A program made the translations under genes and the position numbers. Shown piece by piece: positions 881 through 40,514 of a DNA stretch of 40,514 nucleotides (position 1 is the first letter of the stretch; every line of letters starts with the position of its first letter). The DNA lies in the IMG/VR virus record IMGVR_UViG_3300033144_004516, positions 1 to 40,514 of that record; one strand, 5' to 3'. This DNA comes from a virus. The notes under the pieces are model-generated. The model was not told the DNA's origin. It made no database searches and saw only the letters and a list, made by a program, of their open reading frames with translations.

Positions 881-885
881 ATCGG

Positions 886-1050
886 CGGGTAGTGGTGGAA
901 TAGAGACACTAGGAGACCCGTAAGACTCGCATGGGAGCCGTGCTTTCTGCGGCGTACCGCGTTATTGTGAGTTGTCCAAGGGTGAGAGTCCCTTGGCTAC
1001 CCGGCCAGAACTGCTCCCCGCCGTTCCTCGGAACTGGCGGGGTTGTTTTT
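886..1050 (+). ncRNA. structured RNA with tRNA-like ends
   Basis: The RNA would start with CGGGTAG (886-892), which pairs perfectly with CTACCCG (997-1003). This is followed by GCCA, the layout of a tRNA acceptor stem, discriminator base and CCA. The next bases (TGGTGGAAT...AGACAC) resemble the D arm of tRNA-Leu. Just before the 3' strand lies a 7-bp hairpin CCAAGGG-TGAGAGT-CCCTTGG where a T arm would sit, but its loop is not TTCRANY. Between them is a GCGG-CGTA-CCGC hairpin and no normal anticodon arm. At 118 bases it is too long for an ordinary tRNA and too short for one with a group I intron. It is bounded by P2 and a strong terminator. Likely a stand-alone RNA or a degenerate tRNA-derived element; function unknown. 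Confidence 0.55.
1016..1050 (+). terminator. strong intrinsic terminator
   Basis: A 7-bp GC stem, CCCCGCC (1016-1022) with GGCGGGG (1036-1042), contains an inner GTTCC/GGAAC pairing. TTGTTTTT follows directly. It ends the tRNA-like RNA unit. Confidence 0.85.
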
Positions 1051-1077
1051 GCAACCTCGGATCATATCTTGTAAAAT
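1049..1077 (+). promoter_or_regulatory. promoter of the collagen-like gene
   Basis: TTGCAA at 1049-1054, a 17-bp spacer, then TAAAAT at 1072-1077 (5 of 6 to TATAAT). It begins on the T tract of the preceding terminator and lies about 24 bp before the start codon. An independent promoter for one gene is typical of a phage 'moron' expressed in the lysogen. Confidence 0.55.
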
Positions 1078-1100
1078 GCCCCCATAAGAAAGGGGGGATT

Positions 1101-1583
1101 ATGTCACGCCTCTTTGTTCTCTCCATGCTTCTCGTCCTACTACTTATTGGGGCCAGTGTAGGCATTACCTATCTCACCTTAGAGTATACGGGGTTCAGGG
1201 GTCCGGTTGGTGGGCAGGGGCCACAAGGGATACAGGGCATACAGGGACCGCAGGGGATTCCTGGCGAACAAGGCCCACAGGGGCTGCAGGGGCAGCCCGG
1301 GGAGGCGGTTCTTTTCTTCTGTGACCCGCCGTGGGTCTCGGGCTACAATACGTGGACGGTGTATGGCATCGGGTTCCCTGAGGACGTGGTGGTTCGCCTT
1401 GAGTTCGAGCGTTGGGGTGTATCAGGTTGGCAGGACTGGTTCACAGAGACCGTCGCGTCAGATGAAAATGGGTCCTTTGAAATCTACTTCGAGGGCCTGG
1501 GCTTCTACGCCCTCGTCTACTCAATGGCAACCATCGATGGCCAGCCCTGGGCGTATACCCCGATATGGTTCGGTCCAGCCTAA
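1101..1583 (+). CDS. membrane-anchored collagen-like protein
   Basis: 160 residues from ATG 1101, chosen because GGGGGG lies just upstream; an earlier in-frame start would run through the promoter and terminator. Residues about 4-28 are a hydrophobic signal-anchor ([19 protein letters not shown]). Residues about 31-67 are Gly-X-Y collagen triplets rich in Gln and Pro ([20 protein letters not shown]). The remaining ~90 residues are aromatic and strand-rich, perhaps an Ig-like domain. Bacterial and phage collagen repeats form trimers used in fibres or surface stalks. With its own promoter and position beside the integrase, this may be a lysogenic-conversion surface protein; a virion fibre is the alternative. 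Its stop overlaps the convergent integrase stop by four bases. Confidence 0.75.
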
Positions 1584-2611
1584 GTGGAGGCCTGCCGACC
1601 AAACGTTCTCCACCGTTCCGCTGAACTCTTCTCCTTTAACCGCAATAGCGGGTCGTGTATCCTATGTGCCCTCATGCCGTCCTCCTGGTTGATGGTAGTC
1701 AGATACCTCTCCGTGGTTCTCATGCTGCTATGACCAAGTATCTCCTGTAGGTATCTCAGACTGCCTCCACTTCGCAGGAAGTCAGTCGCAAACGTATGCC
1801 TTAACGTATGTGCAGAGCACCGAATATCCGTAATCCCGGCCCGCTCCTTCAACCTCTCTATGGCAATCTTGACGCCCTCTCTCGTCAACGGTCGCCTTTC
1901 CTCACTTAGCCATAGATAGTCCGTTTCTGGCCGATCAAACTTGAGGTAGCTTATCAGGGCTCGGCAGACTACTGGCGACAGATACAACCTCTGCTGCTTG
2001 TTGTTCTTGCGCCAGACAAGAACCTCGTGATTTGTGAGATCAAGGTTCCCCATCCTGAGATTACTCAACTCCGCCAGCCTCATGCCCGTACCATAGAACA
2101 TGAGGATAATGGCCCTGTTGCGGGCTCCCAGAAAGGTGTTGACGGGGCACAAGCCAAGTAGTCTGTCGATATGCTCATGAGACAGGATGGGTACGATAGG
2201 CCGAGGAAGTGGGGGGCGCTTCACGTGCTGCATGGGGCTCGCCTCTATCGCGCCTTCCTCAATAAGCCACTGGAAAAACCGGTGCAAGCCCCGGTAGAAC
2301 TTCTCCTGCGTGCTAACCGCCAAGCCCCTCTGCTTAAGAGATAGCAGCCATGCCCTGATGTGAGCAGGCTCAATCTCCCTGACCTCAAAGGGCAGACCTT
2401 CCCTCTCCAAGAAATCCCGGAAGTTTCCCAGAACCCCCCGCATATTGGAGAGCGTGCCTGTTGCCCTCCCTTCTGATGTATAGGCCAATAGGAGGTATGC
2501 GATTTGTCTATCGATACTAGGCTGTTTAGACTGGGTTCCAGCTAGGTAGGACCTCCACTGTGGGGCCTTGTTTGGACTAGCATATACAACCATGTTTTCA
2601 TATTCGGGCAC
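1580..2611 (-). CDS. int: tyrosine recombinase, phage integrase
   Basis: 343 residues with the XerC/D-type plan: N-terminal SAM-like core-binding domain (about 25-125) and catalytic domain (about 140-325). Active-site residues are visible: Arg178 (GTGMRLAEL), Lys in RKNNKQ near 202-205, His268 and Arg271 (HTLRHTF), His294 (LGHSS) and nucleophile Tyr303 (TERYL). It should integrate and excise the phage at the tRNA-Ile site 17 bp upstream of its start. The longest frame begins at a GTG whose GGAG lies only one base away, so ATG seven codons in (2593-2591) is a possible real start. It is transcribed away from attP. Confidence 0.95.
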
Positions 2612-2627
2612 TCCTAATTTTACAAAA

Positions 2628-2672
2628 TGGTGGGCGATAGTGGACTCGAACCACTGACCCCAGTCTTATCAG
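2628..2672 (-). other. attP: attP core: 3' half of tRNA-Ile(GAT)
   Basis: Read on the minus strand, 45 bases match a tRNA-Ile from the anticodon loop CTGATAA to the terminal CCA. They include a T arm with stem AGTGG/CCACT and loop TTCGAGT, then 3' acceptor strand ATCGCCC plus ACCA. The 5' half of a tRNA is absent, so this is not a tRNA gene. Tyrosine integrases commonly use the anticodon loop as crossover site and restore the host tRNA 3' end on integration. Phage genes lie on both sides, so this is attP rather than attL or attR. Confidence 0.85.
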
Positions 2673-2736
2673 GACATACCGCCAAAAATAATAGGAGCCC
2701 CGCCCTCCTTCCTGACAAAAGACTTCGGCGTACCAC

Positions 2737-3117
2737 CTAGTTTAAGGATCGCAACATAATCCTTACGGCCTCTTTCTTTTCTGGCGACAGCTTGGCCCAG
2801 GTGTAGAGGAAAAACTCTGTAATGTCGTATGGTATGTGGCCGTTCGGGCAGCCCTCTGAGGATTCGCCGTTCTCCCAACACAGGAAGTCCAAGCTCCGCC
2901 CGAGCACCCTGGCGATACGCAACAGCGTGTCCAGTTCCGGCAGGCTGCTTCCTTTCACCACATTGCTGATGGTCATACTCGGCAAGCCAGTGCGCCGCGC
3001 CAACTCCGCCTGAATCATCATCTGGCGGTCCAATTCTCCACGTATTCTCTCCGCCACCCTCTGCGCTATCCGCTTTCGCTGGGCAAGTTTTTGTTCATTC
3101 GTGAGTTTGCCTTCCAT
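2737..3117 (-). CDS. XRE-family (Cro/C1-type) repressor
   Basis: 126 residues. A helix-turn-helix occupies about residues 34-80 (AELARRTGLPSMTISNVVKG, then SLPELDTLLRIARVLG), the classic HTH_3 fold. The N-terminus is basic. The C-terminal part (IPYDITEFFLYTWAKL...) may form the dimer interface; there is no peptidase domain, so it is not a LexA-type self-cleaving repressor. It is divergent from the early operon across a region with promoters in both directions, which fits a lysogeny regulator controlling itself and the rightward promoter. Confidence 0.88.
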   Translation of the reverse strand: MEGKLTNEQKLAQRKRIAQRVAERIRGELDRQMMIQAELARRTGLPSMTISNVVKGSSLPELDTLLRIARVLGRSLDFLCWENGESSEGCPNGHIPYDITEFFLYTWAKLSPEKKEAVRIMLRSLN

Positions 3118-4218: not shown

Positions 4219-5113
4219 GGGCGAACTCGAAATCGCGGCTCAGTACAAGAGAGACGAGGCCGACGGCAAAGATGCCATCGCTTTGCACTATGCCGGCTTG
4301 GCCGGGCACTACCGGTCTTTCCTAAAGCAGACTATTGCTATGCTGGAAAGAGACGAAGCCCGGTTGAAAGAGTTGGAGGTGGACAAAGCAGAGCGGGATC
4401 GTATTATTGAAAGCTTTGAGCCAATCATTGAACTCGCCCGCAAAATCAACTTTTGCGAGGACTATGAGTGCATCTACCCAGACGGCATGCACCGGGACGC
4501 CCGCTGCCTCGTGTGCGGCGAGAAGCCAAGCGAGCAAGAACTGCGGGACATGGACGCGGACAACGCGGGACATGGACGCGGACAACGTGGCCAAGGAGCG
4601 CCGGGAGCGCGAACTGGCGAGGGAGGAGGGCCAGCCATGTGCTTAGACATCGTAGACGAGACCCCGCGGCAGTATGAAGGCGAGTACGGCGTGGGCTGGA
4701 AGGTGTTTGTGAAGGTAGAAGACGGGCTGTACGAGGGGATTTACTACCTTAAAAACTCCTACCAGCAGGGGCAATGGTACGAGGATTGGCAGACAGGCAA
4801 TATATTGCCCAGCCGACCGTGTGACATCCCCAACACAACATGGGCGCTGGGCTACATGGCGGGTTACCACATCTTTGCGAACCACAAGGACGCTATGGCC
4901 TGGGCAGGCGCGATACGACCATGTGTAGAGATCGGCTCAGTCGTTGTGGCGCGTGTCCATTACCAAGACGTGGTAGCCAGCGGGTGGCAGTCACTCGGTC
5001 TTGTTTGGGTTAAGAAGGACCAGTGGGTATACGATCTTCACCCCGTCATAGTTGCCCGCCGCATGAAGATCGTAGAGGAAGTGCTGGAAGAGGAGGCCGT
5101 GGATGTTCATTAA
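4172..5113 (+). CDS. fused ORF made by a 22-bp tandem duplication
   Basis: As the sequence stands this is one 313-residue frame, but it looks like two genes joined by accident. Residues 1-128 are a charged helical protein with a CxxC (CLVCGE) near 113-116. Then come the duplicated bases, a Gly/Arg-rich linker (NAGHGRGQRGQG...), and from Met156 a different protein with its own GGAGG and ATG at 4637. Removing one 22-bp copy puts the first part into the frame ending at TAG 4644-4646 (…AKERRERELAREEG…), leaving two genes that overlap by ten bases, as elsewhere in this operon. The first protein is an unknown early protein. Confidence 0.6.
   Translation: MMTYKNVHELKEYLLRGELEIAAQYKRDEADGKDAIALHYAGLAGHYRSFLKQTIAMLERDEARLKELEVDKAERDRIIESFEPIIELARKINFCEDYECIYPDGMHRDARCLVCGEKPSEQELRDMDADNAGHGRGQRGQGAPGARTGEGGGPAMCLDIVDETPRQYEGEYGVGWKVFVKVEDGLYEGIYYLKNSYQQGQWYEDWQTGNILPSRPCDIPNTTWALGYMAGYHIFANHKDAMAWAGAIRPCVEIGSVVVARVHYQDVVASGWQSLGLVWVKKDQWVYDLHPVIVARRMKIVEEVLEEEAVDVH
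4544..4587 (+). repeat. perfect 22-bp tandem duplication
   Basis: Two adjacent identical 22-base copies, 4544-4565 and 4566-4587 (CGGGACATGGACGCGG...). The length is not a multiple of three, so one copy is frameshifting. It changes a two-gene arrangement into the fusion ORF. Confidence 0.95.
4637..5113 (+). CDS. hypothetical early protein (probable true second gene)
   Basis: 158 residues from ATG 4637, seven bases after GGAGG. Rich in aromatic residues and strands (GEYGVGWKVFVKVEDG, YLKNSYQQGQWYEDW), ending in an acidic helix (VEEVLEEEAVDVH). No known domain seen. It shares frame with the upstream ORF only because of the 22-bp duplication. Its end overlaps the next start by 11 bases. Confidence 0.6.
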   Translation: MCLDIVDETPRQYEGEYGVGWKVFVKVEDGLYEGIYYLKNSYQQGQWYEDWQTGNILPSRPCDIPNTTWALGYMAGYHIFANHKDAMAWAGAIRPCVEIGSVVVARVHYQDVVASGWQSLGLVWVKKDQWVYDLHPVIVARRMKIVEEVLEEEAVDVH

Positions 5114-5312: not shown

Positions 5313-6058
5313 GCGAGCAGAAACGACCGCACCTGTCTCATACGCAGCTGAACATGTGGCTGCGATGCCCCCGCCAGTATGAGTTCCGCTACTGGAAGGG
5401 ACTCAAAATCCCCCCGGCGGGGGCCATGATCCAGGGCTCATGCTACCACGAGGCCCTGGCCCGGAACTTCACGCATAAGCTAGATACCCATGAAGACATG
5501 CCCGTCCCTGACATCTTGGACTACTTCAGCGACACCTGGGCCGCAAAGCTGGCCAGCGAGCCCGAGGTGGACTGGGAAGGTGACGACCCCGGCAGGCTCA
5601 AGGACGAGGGGGTAAGGCTCACCAAGATGTACAGGGAGCAGAAGGCCCCTGAGGTCCAGCCGTTCCTCGTCGAGGAGAAGCTCGTGCTGCCGCTGGACGG
5701 CCAGGACCTGGACTTCGTGGGCATAGTGGACCTGGTCTGCCTGGACGACCTGGTCGTGGACCACAAGACCGTAGCACGCACACCCACGCAGGCGGACGTG
5801 GACCAGGATATACAGGCTACAGCCTACGCATTCTTGCTACAGCGTGACATAGACTTCGCCATACATGCAGCCGTTAAGAACAAGACGCCCAAACTGGCTG
5901 AGATACGCACCCGCCGCACGCAGGCGGACATCGCCTGGTGGCTGGACATGGTGCAGGGCGTCTGGAGGCAAATGCAGACCGGCATAGCGCCGCCGAATCC
6001 GTGTGGGTGGCACTGCTCACCTGCAGGATGCGGGTATTGGCGGCTGTGCAGGCCGTAA
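5309..6058 (+). CDS. PD-(D/E)XK nuclease, RecB/Cas4-like, with Fe-S cysteines
   Basis: 249 residues from ATG 5309. Opening SHTQLNMWLRCPRQYEFRY is the usual start of PDDEXK_1 proteins, with Cys20. His47 (GSCYHEAL), Asp141 (GIVD), Asp151-His-Lys153 and a QxxxY motif (Q169-Y173) form the nuclease core. C-terminal Cys232, 236, 241 and 247 (CGWHCSPAGCGYWRLC) together with Cys20 resemble the 4Fe-4S staple of AddB and Cas4. In phages such proteins act as exonucleases in recombination or replication. It is followed at once by the RDF-like gene, suggesting a recombination pair. Confidence 0.88.
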   Translation: MSEQKRPHLSHTQLNMWLRCPRQYEFRYWKGLKIPPAGAMIQGSCYHEALARNFTHKLDTHEDMPVPDILDYFSDTWAAKLASEPEVDWEGDDPGRLKDEGVRLTKMYREQKAPEVQPFLVEEKLVLPLDGQDLDFVGIVDLVCLDDLVVDHKTVARTPTQADVDQDIQATAYAFLLQRDIDFAIHAAVKNKTPKLAEIRTRRTQADIAWWLDMVQGVWRQMQTGIAPPNPCGWHCSPAGCGYWRLCRP

Positions 6059-6072
6059 AGGAGGGAGAAGCA

Positions 6073-7056
6073 ATGAGTCCGATTGAAGGAGTAACCGACA
6101 GAGTCAGGCTGCCGCGCCTGGGCAAAATCCGCCTCGGCGTCAAGGTCCAGGGCGACAAGAGCCCGTACCCGAAAGCTGTCAACTATTTCGTTTGCCCGCC
6201 CGAGGTCCAGGCGGTACATGGTGAGAAGCCCAAAGAGCTGCCGATCATGTTTCCGACTGAGGAGCCGGAGCAGTGGGCAAGCCAGTACTACCGGGCTTAC
6301 TCACAGACCCGCGGGCTGGTGTGTAAGGGGGACGGCAGGACGGCTAATGCCCTGGTGGACAGCCGGACGGGGGAGATTGCCACGAGAGAGAGCAAAGAGA
6401 CGGAACTGAGGGAAGTCACCTGCGATCCCGACACCTGCCCATTGTACGAAAAGAAGGGCTGCCGAGCGATCATGAACCTGCAGTTTATGCTGCCCGACGT
6501 GCCCGGACTGGGTGTGTGGCAACTGGACACATCAAGCTGGAACTCGATTCGCAACATCAACTCTGCCATCACCCTGATTAAGTCCGCCTTAGGCCGCATC
6601 AGCATGATTCCGCTGCAGCTCAAGGTCGAGCCCATCGAGGTCAGCCCGGACGGCATGAAGAAGACCGTCTATGTGATCAACTTGCATGCACCCTACACGC
6701 TGACCGACATCATTAAGCAGCTGCAGCAGTTGCCGCCCGGCAAGTTCCTCTTGCCGACGCCTGACATTGAAAGGCCGGACGATCTGATCCCGGATGAGAT
6801 GGCGGTTGACAGCCAGGCGGCGCAGGGTGGTGTGGAGCAATCCGTGGGTGTTGACTGGAGCCGCCTGATGCGCGTGGCAGCCAAGATGGGGCTTGGCAGC
6901 ACGAGCCTTGTCTGCCGAGCACTGGAGGTCAGGGTGCCCGGCGAGTACCAGGGCGACACTGAGGCCGCGCTGGAGAAGTGCTTCTCGTGGGCGCGGGTCG
7001 CCGGAAAGCAGGAAGTGCTGGGCGTAGCGGACTGGCGGGAAGTGGAGGTGAAATGA
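6073..7056 (+). CDS. gp3-like/recombination directionality factor-family protein
   Basis: 327 residues from ATG 6073, after GGAGGGAG. The pattern IRLGVKV…YFVCPPEV…LPIMFPTEE…YSQTRGLVCKGDG…CDPDTCPLY…C…LQFMLPDVPGLGVWQLDTSSWNS resembles phage proteins grouped with the phiC31 gp3 recombination directionality factor. Four Cys near residues 118-135 could bind zinc. The phage encodes a tyrosine, not serine, integrase, so a classic RDF role is doubtful. A single-strand annealing or replication role next to the RecB-like nuclease is equally plausible. The family call is from memory of motifs. Confidence 0.6.
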   Translation: MSPIEGVTDRVRLPRLGKIRLGVKVQGDKSPYPKAVNYFVCPPEVQAVHGEKPKELPIMFPTEEPEQWASQYYRAYSQTRGLVCKGDGRTANALVDSRTGEIATRESKETELREVTCDPDTCPLYEKKGCRAIMNLQFMLPDVPGLGVWQLDTSSWNSIRNINSAITLIKSALGRISMIPLQLKVEPIEVSPDGMKKTVYVINLHAPYTLTDIIKQLQQLPPGKFLLPTPDIERPDDLIPDEMAVDSQAAQGGVEQSVGVDWSRLMRVAAKMGLGSTSLVCRALEVRVPGEYQGDTEAALEKCFSWARVAGKQEVLGVADWREVEVK

Positions 7057-11596: not shown

Positions 11597-11636
11597 CACA
11601 CTGGCGGCTGAAGTGCAAGGAGCGAGAGGGCAAAGC

Positions 11637-12440
11637 GTGAGGCTGGTCCACATTGACATCTTTTCGGGCATTGGCGGCTTCGCGCTTGCTGCTGAATGGG
11701 CAGGATATGAGACAGTCTGCTTCTGTGAGTGTGACCCATACTGCCAACAGGTACTACGGAAACACTGGCCGAACGTGCCGATAGTGGAGGACATACATGG
11801 GTTTACAGCCAAGCGAATACGAAGAATGGGAATCGCAGCAGTTGACCTACTTACAGGAGGACCACCTTGCCAGCCAGCCAGTGTTGCCGGGAAGCGAAGA
11901 GGCAAGGAAGACGACCGCTGGCTCTGGCCGGAGACTGTCAGGGTGCTTGGTGAGCTCAAGCCCCGTTGGGCGCTGTTTGAAAACCCTACTGGAATCCTCT
12001 CAATGGGCTTCGACGATCTGCTATCTGATGTGGAGAGGCAGGGGTACGAAGTCGGGGCGGCCATTGTTCCAGCTTGTGCCGTCAACGCCCCGCATAGACG
12101 GGACAGGGTGTGGATTGTGGCCTACAGTGACGCAGTTCGATGCGACGTGTGGGGACCTGATGGGCAAGGAATACACGGGCAAGAACAAGCACGCGATGAA
12201 GTTGATTCAGGCGGTCAGGATGTTTCCGACTCCGCACGCAACATGCTCGACAGGACCGGGAACCCAGGGCAGGCAGGGTGGCGAGAACCTGCAAACGGCG
12301 ATTGGTGGGACGTTGAACCCGACGTTTGTCGAGTGGCTCATGGGGTACCCCGAAGGGTGGACCGACTTAGAGCACTCGGGAACGCCATCGTGCCCCAGGT
12401 AGCCTACCAGATTATTAGGGCCATAAAGGAGGCATCTTGA
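11637..12440 (+). CDS. dcm: C5-cytosine DNA methyltransferase
   Basis: 267 residues from GTG 11637, with AGAGGG upstream and GTGA coupling. Motif I DIFSGIGG (7-14), motif IV GGPPCQP with catalytic Cys78, motif VI ENP (115-117), motif VIII HRRDRVWIVA (153-162) and motif X RLRALGNAIVPQVA near 240-255 are all present. The enzyme transfers methyl from SAM to cytosine C5, probably to shield phage DNA from host restriction. The target recognition region (about 165-225) is short and low in complexity, so specificity is unclear. A second coding frame runs inside the gene. Confidence 0.92.
   Translation: MRLVHIDIFSGIGGFALAAEWAGYETVCFCECDPYCQQVLRKHWPNVPIVEDIHGFTAKRIRRMGIAAVDLLTGGPPCQPASVAGKRRGKEDDRWLWPETVRVLGELKPRWALFENPTGILSMGFDDLLSDVERQGYEVGAAIVPACAVNAPHRRDRVWIVAYSDAVRCDVWGPDGQGIHGQEQARDEVDSGGQDVSDSARNMLDRTGNPGQAGWREPANGDWWDVEPDVCRVAHGVPRRVDRLRALGNAIVPQVAYQIIRAIKEAS
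11797..12402 (+). CDS. gene nested in dcm in the +1 frame
   Basis: 201 residues from ATG 11797 with its own GGAGG six bases upstream. The motifs are those of a known phage methyltransferase-associated family: W…Y-MW…GT-SGRPLFQLVPSTPRIDG, GCGLWPTVTQFD, and near the end LNPTFVEWLMGYPEGWTDL. Both frames therefore look selected. CRVAHGVPRRVDRL of the methyltransferase and FVEWLMGYPEGWTDL of this frame are encoded by the same bases. It may aid the enzyme or be the product of an ancient frameshift. Activity unknown. Confidence 0.55.
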   Translation: MGLQPSEYEEWESQQLTYLQEDHLASQPVLPGSEEARKTTAGSGRRLSGCLVSSSPVGRCLKTLLESSQWASTICYLMWRGRGTKSGRPLFQLVPSTPRIDGTGCGLWPTVTQFDATCGDLMGKEYTGKNKHAMKLIQAVRMFPTPHATCSTGPGTQGRQGGENLQTAIGGTLNPTFVEWLMGYPEGWTDLEHSGTPSCPR

Positions 12441-13087: not shown

Positions 13088-13843
13088 ATGCAATTAACGC
13101 TAGACGGCAGGGGAATAGACGAAGTGAGCATAGAGCGCATTCGAATGTTCGAGCCGCTGGAGGGCTATTATCTCGCTTTCTCGGGCGGGAAGGACAGCAT
13201 CGTGATCCTCGACCTGGCCAAACGCTCAGGCGTGCGGTATGACGCTCATTACTCAGTTGTAGGCGTAGACCCGCCTGAGTTAGTCCAGTTCATAAAGCGG
13301 GAACACCCTGAAGTGGTGTTCGACCATCCCAAGCGAACGATGTGGCGGCTGACTGAGACCAATGCCCTGCCTACCCGTCAGAATCGCTGGTGTTGCGCCA
13401 ACTTGAAAGAGGCACACGGTAACGGGCGATTCTTGCTCACCGGGATACGTGCGGCGGAGTCCGCCAGGCGCAAGGCCCGCAAGATGGTCGAGGTTTGTAC
13501 AGACAAGAACAAGCGATTCCTGCACCCTATCTACGACTGGCAGGACGCTGACGTATGGCAGTACATCAGGGAGCGAGGGCTTACTTACTGTTGCCTGTAT
13601 GACGAGGGGTTCACACGACTAGGGTGTGTCCTCTGCCCGATGAGGTCGGCCCAGCAAACAGCGTATGAAATAACGCGCTGGCCCAAGATAGCCGCGGCAT
13701 GGCGGGCGGCGGCAAGGCGATACTACGAGAGGGGCAGGCCGGCAGTTGCAAGATGGGCTACGTTCGAGGACTTCTGGAATTGGTGGATATCCCGAGAAGG
13801 CGGCAAGGCAGACGAGGCACAAGAGTGTTTCGTCTTTGAATAG
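13088..13843 (+). CDS. PAPS reductase/ATP-pyrophosphatase-family protein
   Basis: 251 residues. SGGKDS (about 33-38) is the PP-loop that binds ATP or adenylylated substrate. RWCCANLKE (about 99-107) and CVLCPM (about 178-183) supply Cys pairs, possibly Fe-S or redox. WQDADVWQYIRERGL matches the family's second helix region. Free phages have no sulfate assimilation, so phage members are thought to act in DNA or tRNA thio-modification; here it sits beside dcm. Start at ATG; a 23-codon frame at 13026 bridges from the HD gene. Confidence 0.85.
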   Translation: MQLTLDGRGIDEVSIERIRMFEPLEGYYLAFSGGKDSIVILDLAKRSGVRYDAHYSVVGVDPPELVQFIKREHPEVVFDHPKRTMWRLTETNALPTRQNRWCCANLKEAHGNGRFLLTGIRAAESARRKARKMVEVCTDKNKRFLHPIYDWQDADVWQYIRERGLTYCCLYDEGFTRLGCVLCPMRSAQQTAYEITRWPKIAAAWRAAARRYYERGRPAVARWATFEDFWNWWISREGGKADEAQECFVFE

Positions 13844-14161: not shown

Positions 14162-14548
14162 GTGCCTAATCGAATTACCACGGAGTTGCTGCGGTATATG
14201 GCCCAGACGGCTAACCGCCGGGGCTCGACTGTGGCTGATATGGCCATCGAGTTGCAGGCGGCAAGGGATTATATCGATGATCCCCCTCCTCCACCTGCCG
14301 ACTATCCGGGCAGTCCTACCGAATACCACGAACTGATGCTCTACTACCTGTATTGCTGTATCAACGCCATCCTGAAGGAGTTGGACCGCCGCAAACAAAT
14401 TCAATACGACATTCGCCGTAATGCCGATGTTGAGATCATCCAGACGCTCAAGGAGCGCATACCGGTAGCGGATGTCATTGAGTGGTACACGGATGTCTTT
14501 TACTCAAACCGAGACCAGATGAGGTTTCGCTGCCCGCTATACCGGTAG
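14162..14548 (+). CDS. N-terminal part of CHC2 primase-type protein, frameshifted
   Basis: 128 residues from GTG 14162 (GGAG upstream). The N-terminal ~95 residues are helical with a proline run. The part from EIIQTLKERIPVADVIEWYTDVF is the leader of a CHC2 zinc finger. The frame dies (CPLYR stop) at an 80-bp perfect duplication. With one copy removed it continues as CPLHQDNHPSGVIYVRESRW and joins the next frame to give one protein of about 195 residues. Confidence 0.75.
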   Translation: MPNRITTELLRYMAQTANRRGSTVADMAIELQAARDYIDDPPPPPADYPGSPTEYHELMLYYLYCCINAILKELDRRKQIQYDIRRNADVEIIQTLKERIPVADVIEWYTDVFYSNRDQMRFRCPLYR

Positions 14549-14618
14549 CGGATGTCATTGAGTGGTACACGGATGTCTTTTACTCAAACCGAGACCAGAT
14601 GAGGTTTCGCTGCCCGCT
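14459..14618 (+). repeat. perfect 80-bp tandem duplication
   Basis: 14459-14538 and 14539-14618 are identical, base for base. Eighty is not divisible by three, so the duplication breaks the reading frame inside the zinc-finger coding region. A recent event or an assembly artefact. Confidence 0.97.
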
Positions 14619-39418: not shown

Positions 39419-39627
39419 TGAAGAAATACACCGAGACAATCCCGGGAATCCTCGGGGCGATAGAGGATGGCAAGAAAGATAGCGCAAGCAGGGATAGGGA
39501 TATGGGGTTGACGCTGGAGCGCATTGAGCGCAACCTCGCCTGGTCCAAGATGGTCGTCATTGCATCCTGCATCCTCATGCTTGTGGTAATCAGTCTGTTT
39601 GGGGTCCTGATATGGCTACAAGTCTAG
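39418..39627 (+). CDS. small membrane protein with coiled coil
   Basis: 69 residues from ATG 39418, TGATG overlap with the preceding gene. Charged helix (DRDMGLTLERIERNLAWSK) then one membrane segment (VVIASCILMLVVISLFGVLI). Same plan as the XhlA-like protein at 189-500; may be holin-associated. Confidence 0.6.
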   Translation: MKKYTETIPGILGAIEDGKKDSASRDRDMGLTLERIERNLAWSKMVVIASCILMLVVISLFGVLIWLQV

Positions 39628-40514
39628 CAAGTCTGCGGCAGGAGCTAAGCAAATACTTGGGTGACTACTGGGCGGGCACCACAACCGATGATGGAGCCGC
39701 CGACGGCACCACGTTGATAGACTCTGCCCTCACGGAGTGGTCCAGCGATGAGGTGGCCACGGGGGCAGGCGGGCAACGGCCTACCTATGTCTTGGTAACA
39801 GATGATTCCCTCACCAAAGAAGAGAGGCGGGTATCATCCCTTACTACGGCCACGGGCACCATTACGGTCACCAGAGCATTTACAGCACAGGTGACGTCCA
39901 GCAAGACGTATGAGCTACACAAGCTGTTCTCGGCCACGGAGAAGGAGCGGGCTATCGCCAGGGCCGTCAAGGACGTTTACCCGCACCTGTATGTAGCCGT
40001 TGACTCCATATCCTTACGCTATGGGGACTGGCTGATAGACGGGTCATTTGAGGAATGGTCCAGCTCGTCGGCCCTGAGCAACTGGAGCAAGGCGGGGAGC
40101 GTGGCACTTGCACAGACCAGCACATCCGGTAAGGTCAGAGACGGCACGTACTCCTGCGCACTGTCTACGGCTACGGACTACATCTACCAGAGCAGCGCGG
40201 AGAATGCCGATCTTCTTTGGCTGGCGGGATTGACGCCCATCTTCCGGGTCTGGGGATGGGCCTCCACAGCGAACCAACTGTGCATCGCACTGCATGACGG
40301 TACAACGACTACTTACGGGAACCATACCAACCATGAGTCGAGCACAAAGGTCTATCACCCGGGCGACAGTACGTGGCGGCTTCTCGAAGTGAAGGCGACT
40401 ATAGCCGACAACCCCACGGACGTACAGGCGAGGATTTACTACGATGCTACGGACACGACGGCCTATGTTGATGATGCATCCATCACGGGGGTAGGAGACA
40501 AGGACTCCTATGAC
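39612..40514 (+). CDS. large late protein with CBM-like domain, cut by window end
   Basis: 301 codons are visible from ATG 39612 and the frame is still open at the last base. Residues 1-130 look like a neck/connector-type domain (LRQELSKYLGDYWAGTTTDD; SATEKERAIARAVKDVYPHL). From about 140 a carbohydrate-binding-module-like jelly roll follows (IDGSFEEWSSSSALSNWSKA … DGTYSCALS … WRLLEVKATI … AYVDDASITG). CBM_4_9-type modules in phage proteins bind surface glycans. The fusion of a neck-like head with a CBM-like module is unusual. Confidence 0.65.
   Translation, partial: MATSLASLRQELSKYLGDYWAGTTTDDGAADGTTLIDSALTEWSSDEVATGAGGQRPTYVLVTDDSLTKEERRVSSLTTATGTITVTRAFTAQVTSSKTYELHKLFSATEKERAIARAVKDVYPHLYVAVDSISLRYGDWLIDGSFEEWSSSSALSNWSKAGSVALAQTSTSGKVRDGTYSCALSTATDYIYQSSAENADLLWLAGLTPIFRVWGWASTANQLCIALHDGTTTTYGNHTNHESSTKVYHPGDSTWRLLEVKATIADNPTDVQARIYYDATDTTAYVDDASITGVGDKDSYD

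Follow-up and report, generated by a model that had tools for sequence, protein, structure and literature searches.

Why does a virus carry half of an isoleucine tRNA gene beside its integrase gene, and what does that half say about the host? The question is raised by positions 2628-2672 of a 40,514-base virus record, which was analysed whole, is referred to here as the window, and comes from a contig classed as linear. The minus strand of this segment, CTGATAAGACTGGGGTCAGTGGTTCGAGTCCACTATCGCCCACCA, matches the 3′ half of a tRNA-Ile(GAT) gene exactly, running for 45 nt from the anticodon loop to CCA. Our reading, to which we give a probability of about 0.94, is that the phage is temperate and is present here in free form, either circular or replicating, that these bases are the core of its attP, and that the anticodon loop is where its integrase recombines attP with the tRNA-Ile(GAT) gene of a host.

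The probable attP core and its neighbors

The half can be read directly, element by element. It opens with a 7-nt anticodon loop, CTGATAA, in which GAT stands for Ile, and continues through the 3′ strand of the anticodon stem (GACTG), the variable loop (GGGTC), a T arm whose 5-bp stem pairs perfectly (AGTGG/CCACT) and whose loop is TTCGAGT, the acceptor 3′ strand ATCGCCC, the discriminator A and CCA. It is single-copy in the window, and 100 dinucleotide-preserving shuffles contain zero matches to it, even with three mismatches allowed. ARAGORN calls no tRNA in the window, at attP because the 5′ half is missing; the bases upstream of the core (..GGTATGTC) retain just three matching bases of the anticodon stem, GTC. 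A preliminary description of this DNA had recognized a tRNA-Ile 3′ half from anticodon loop to CCA, lacking its 5′ half and flanked on both sides by phage genes. Direct reading of the minus strand confirms the first point, the ARAGORN result and the residual GTC agree with the second, and the third is borne out by the genes on either side.

On one side is an intact tyrosine integrase, P0001 (343 aa; 1580-2611, minus strand; Pfam Phage_integrase 9e-34, PHROG integrase 1.4e-45), which begins 16 nt past the CCA on the same strand, so that the window holds a tRNA 3′ half, from anticodon loop to 3′ end, beside an integrase. The gene starts with GTG and has an in-frame ATG six codons further on. Its catalytic set R-K-H-R-H-Y is complete (R178, K202, H268, R271, H294 and Y303, by alignment to relatives and XerD). 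Pfam finds a SAM-like core-binding domain, and no arm-binding domain was recognized in the protein. On the upstream side lies a CI-like HTH repressor (2737-3117, minus strand; Pfam HTH_3 1.4e-10 and Phage_CI_repr 4.6e-05; PHROG transcriptional repressor 3.8e-10). A possible weak terminator between repressor and attP (2693-2709, minus strand), with a 5-bp stem followed by ATTATTTTTG, comes from a consensus scan only, in which three terminator-type sites were found against 1.5 expected in shuffles, not a significant excess.

The adjacency of repressor, attP and integrase on one strand is also the setting of integration-dependent immunity, in which attP lies within the repressor coding sequence and integration alters the repressor. 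In the window the repressor ORF ends 64 nt before the core, and integration would therefore leave the repressor whole. The repressor of an integrated relative described below likewise ends before the core, and this mode of immunity is very improbable here.

Integrated relatives in Dehalococcoidia

Relatives of integrase P0001 were sought in 393 genomes of the class to which genomes G003 and G008 belong, with a cut-off of E ≤ 1e-42, and were found at 32 places in 25 genomes, at identities of about 33-40%. An intact tRNA lies directly upstream on the same strand in 16 of the 29 integrase loci that were extracted, and at three of these, in G024, G144 and G247, it is tRNA-Ile(GAT). These three genomes belong to the order of a metagenome-assembled genome (MAG) named Dehalococcoidales, and the class is therefore Dehalococcoidia.

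Two of the three display the full integrated state, with a restored tRNA and a displaced fragment. In G024, a single 1.52-Mb contig, the intact tRNA-Ile and the integrase lie at 981 kb. At 955.6 kb, 25,568 bp away, 51 bp recur identically without the 5′ half, and this copy adjoins an S24/HTH repressor that ends before the core as in the window. In G144 the repeat is 46 bp long and its displaced copy is found on another contig, again by an S24/HTH repressor. In both genomes the first identical base of the repeat is the C at the start of the anticodon loop, which is also the first base of the tRNA segment in the window, and the order repressor-att-integrase on one strand recurs in integrated relatives. 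Use of the anticodon loop, as the preliminary description proposed, is thereby supported, and so is its assignment of attP to the tRNA-Ile(GAT) half, for which the attL/attR repeats of these relatives are joined by the viral contigs considered below.

The 25.6-kb element of G024 resembles the phage in its 37%-identical integrase, its tRNA-Ile(GAT) target and its repressor-att-integrase order on one strand. It differs in the acceptor stem of its target (GGGCCAT/ATGGCCC), in the T stem and in most of its cargo; no terminase was recognized among the ORFs scanned in it.

In G144, a gene for a large serine integrase (L073:3786-5519) also runs at its 3′ end into the displaced tRNA-Ile half (L073:3793-3837), so one tRNA site in that genome may serve recombinases of two types.

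In G003, one contig, C67 (L077), carries two orphan tRNA-Ile halves separated by 6.1 kb. Their upstream flanks are similar, which suggests tandem elements at one tRNA site; the half that stands ahead of a 36%-identical integrase has a different T stem. Such arrangements bear on the alternative that the half in the window is the attR or attL of a prophage within a host contig. Integrated members of the integrase family do exist and the contig is classed as linear, yet an attL would show a complete tRNA ahead of the integrase, where the window has no 5′ half, and an attR would show host genes after the CCA, where the window has an integrase and phage-type genes on both sides. The ORFs at the two contig ends, moreover, are in frame with each other, like those of a permuted circle. 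A tandem prophage array, as seems to be present in G003, could also leave a half flanked at either end by phage DNA and is the form of this alternative hardest to exclude. Taken as a whole the prophage alternative is unlikely, and the free, non-integrated form stated in the preliminary description is supported by the missing 5′ half and the phage-type genes on both flanks.

The targets of the relatives are many different tRNAs, and an integrase tree does not place the window among the tRNA-Ile users. Kinship was for that reason not used to call the target; with relatives so varied in target and only about 33-40% identical, the target is read from the phage's own attP.

Related integrases in viral contigs

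With P0001 alone as the query, no close viral relative was found. Eighty related viral integrase loci were retrieved with an alignment instead of a single sequence, and the 43 that had at least 450 nt upstream formed the tested set. A tRNA T arm occurs within 450 nt upstream, on the integrase strand, at 29 of these 43 loci. On the opposite strand only 2 of the 43 have one, and a control stretch 900-1350 nt upstream has one at 1 of 38 loci. Orphan tRNA-Ile(GAT) halves precede related integrases in three viral contigs (L095, L096 and L101); other loci carry halves of Ala(GGC), Pro(GGG), Lys(TTT) and further tRNAs, typically cut at the anticodon loop.

These counts weigh against regarding the half as a captured tRNA fragment with no part in integration, whether a transduction remnant, a decoy or a degraded phage tRNA. 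Orphan tRNA fragments are described in prokaryote genomes (PMC9897764), and an exact host copy of the half was not found among the 84,980 genomes searched. Against this, the half begins precisely where the anticodon loop does, satisfies every tRNA constraint and sits 16 nt ahead of the integrase, and the same placement is seen in relatives far more often than in the controls. Capture without function is extremely improbable.

Comparison with known systems

The elements most like the phage in their use of a tRNA are the Islander genomic islands and prophages whose attP is of the anticodon-loop type (type A), which share with it an element-borne 3′ tRNA fragment, a crossover at the anticodon loop, a tyrosine integrase and, at the ends, a restored tRNA and a displaced fragment (PMC4383910). 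Anticodon-centred sites are the commoner class among the 3919 islands of that study, numbering 2083 against 1836 in the T-stem region (PMC4383910). The present case differs in being a free viral genome whose exact host tRNA is absent from the databases searched. The ssrA-specific genomic islands of Dehalococcoides (DsiB; PMC3146451) are likewise site-specific, lie in an RNA gene of Dehalococcoidia and are bounded by a direct repeat; they rely on a serine recombinase and a tmRNA target, as opposed to the tyrosine integrase and tRNA-Ile found here.

Mycobacteriophages with tRNA-dependent lysogeny also combine a tyrosine integrase with an attB in a tRNA gene (PMC10865867). Their core is short (~10 bp), integration breaks the tRNA without rebuilding it, and the loss has to be made good by a tRNA of that isotype encoded by the phage. 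That such phages exist (PMC10865867) and that a tRNA-like fold lies near the integrase, at about 884-1004, speak for a similar arrangement in the window. However, the shared segment here is 45 nt long and rebuilds a complete tRNA-Ile, and neither ARAGORN nor Rfam finds a phage tRNA in the window. Dependence on a phage tRNA is accordingly highly unlikely.

The host

The preliminary description saw in the 45 bases a direct test of the host. An exact 42-mer of the half is absent from all 84,980 species genomes (0 of 84,980) and has no match in the viral contigs searched, so this test yields no species; what stands is a host at the level of class. The genomes searched contain no recognized copy of this phage in integrated form. 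Among the Dehalococcoidia genomes sampled, none has the half with up to three mismatches and the right acceptor stem. Dehalococcoidia tRNA-Ile genes within three mismatches were considered as the host target and rejected, as their acceptor stem is different (ATGGCCC).

The class emerges from a degenerate scan of the same 84,980 species genomes, which required a tRNA-Ile half to have the anticodon stem and acceptor of attP and left the outer T-stem pairs free. It returned 11 loci in 10 genomes, of which eight are Chloroflexota, most of them bearing the name Dehalococcoidales, Dehalococcoidia or SAR202, and two are CPR. All nine intact tRNA genes among these loci carry the 5′ half GGGCGAT with CAGTC, as had been predicted for the host from the acceptor strand and from pairing with GACTG. 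The nearest tRNA in which acceptor, variable loop and T loop are all right belongs to G008 (L015, MAG B1Sed10_194) and differs only in two T-stem pairs. The closest integrase relative in Dehalococcoidia genomes, G147 (39%), belongs to the same small order as G008. This order may be taken as a lead to the host, not as an identification; tRNA-Ile halves in its other genomes mostly have different acceptor stems. A relative of the terminase, 45% identical, occurs in one Dehalococcoidia genome, G152. We infer from these comparisons that the host is probably a Dehalococcoidia bacterium, at class level only. The tRNA scan is the main support for this call, because the genome searches with the integrase and the terminase covered Dehalococcoidia.

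Other features of the phage genome

Beyond the repressor lie genes for a terminase, a portal (a weak assignment) and a capsid protein. The ORF at the right end (39612-40514) runs in frame into the left end (1-192), giving a joined product of 364 aa, as would be expected of a circularly permuted complete genome. No phage homologue spanning the contig joint was found for the joined ORF, and for this reason the circular genome remains unproven. L002, a 10.9-kb contig from sample 3300033388, has about 99-100% protein identity to the window at 15.7-26.9 kb over most genes, and so records nearly the same phage a second time.

The tRNA-like fold at 884-1004 (plus strand, ~120 nt) has an acceptor-like stem, CGGGTAG/CTACCCG, and an arm, CCAAGGG/CCCTTGG, followed by GGCCA. 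It is not called by ARAGORN or Rfam, and its fold z-score is only -1.8. It was dropped as a candidate phage tRNA, having no exact-match relative in viral contigs. A collagen-like repeat protein with a borderline Pfam score is encoded at 972-1583 (plus strand). A Gp3-like protein (5938-7056, plus strand; PF18897, named recombination directionality factor-like) is 51% identical to a homologue near a large serine integrase in Dehalococcoidales G144; the phage itself shows a tyrosine integrase. The genome further contains a PAPS reductase-domain gene (13088-13843), a C5 cytosine methylase (11613-12440), a perfect 22-bp pair (4543-4586) and a perfect 80-bp tandem duplication (14459-14618). The last is not a multiple of three and lies at the junction of two overlapping ORFs, being either a recent frameshifting duplication or an assembly artefact.

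Proposed integration and its consequences

On the attP reading, the anticodon loop is where the tyrosine integrase would recombine attP with the host's tRNA-Ile(GAT) gene. At one junction, attL, the 5′ half from the host and the 3′ half from the phage would make up a whole tRNA-Ile gene, immediately followed by the integrase gene. At the other, attR, the original 3′ half of the host gene would lie at the far prophage end next to the repressor. The host would retain a working tRNA after integration. When three Dehalococcoidia 5′ halves are joined in silico to attP, ARAGORN calls a complete tRNA-Ile(GAT) with all stems paired. The strand-exchange point and the activity of P0001 are presumed from such comparisons. 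Integration of this kind, through an anticodon-loop attP, is a textbook mechanism, and the value of the present case lies in the call of the host class.

A wider and tentative proposal, which we hold at clearly less than even odds, is that one integrase family of Dehalococcoidia phages and islands keeps a single anatomy, in which a repressor, a tRNA 3′ half that begins at an anticodon-loop cut, and an integrase follow one another on one strand, has repeatedly switched tRNA isotypes and has reached tRNA-Ile(GAT) more than once. Circle closure would place the integrase downstream of the repressor and integration would place it behind a host tRNA gene, so integrase transcription may depend on whether the phage is free or integrated.

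The majority of Dehalococcoidia have not been cultured and, to our knowledge, few phages have been tied to them. The attP described here would link a 40.5-kb virus to this class and predicts its exact insertion point, so that a single 42-base query suffices to test each new metagenome bin. The comparisons also show one integrase family in that class inserting into many different tRNA genes, with the cut at the anticodon loop in common.
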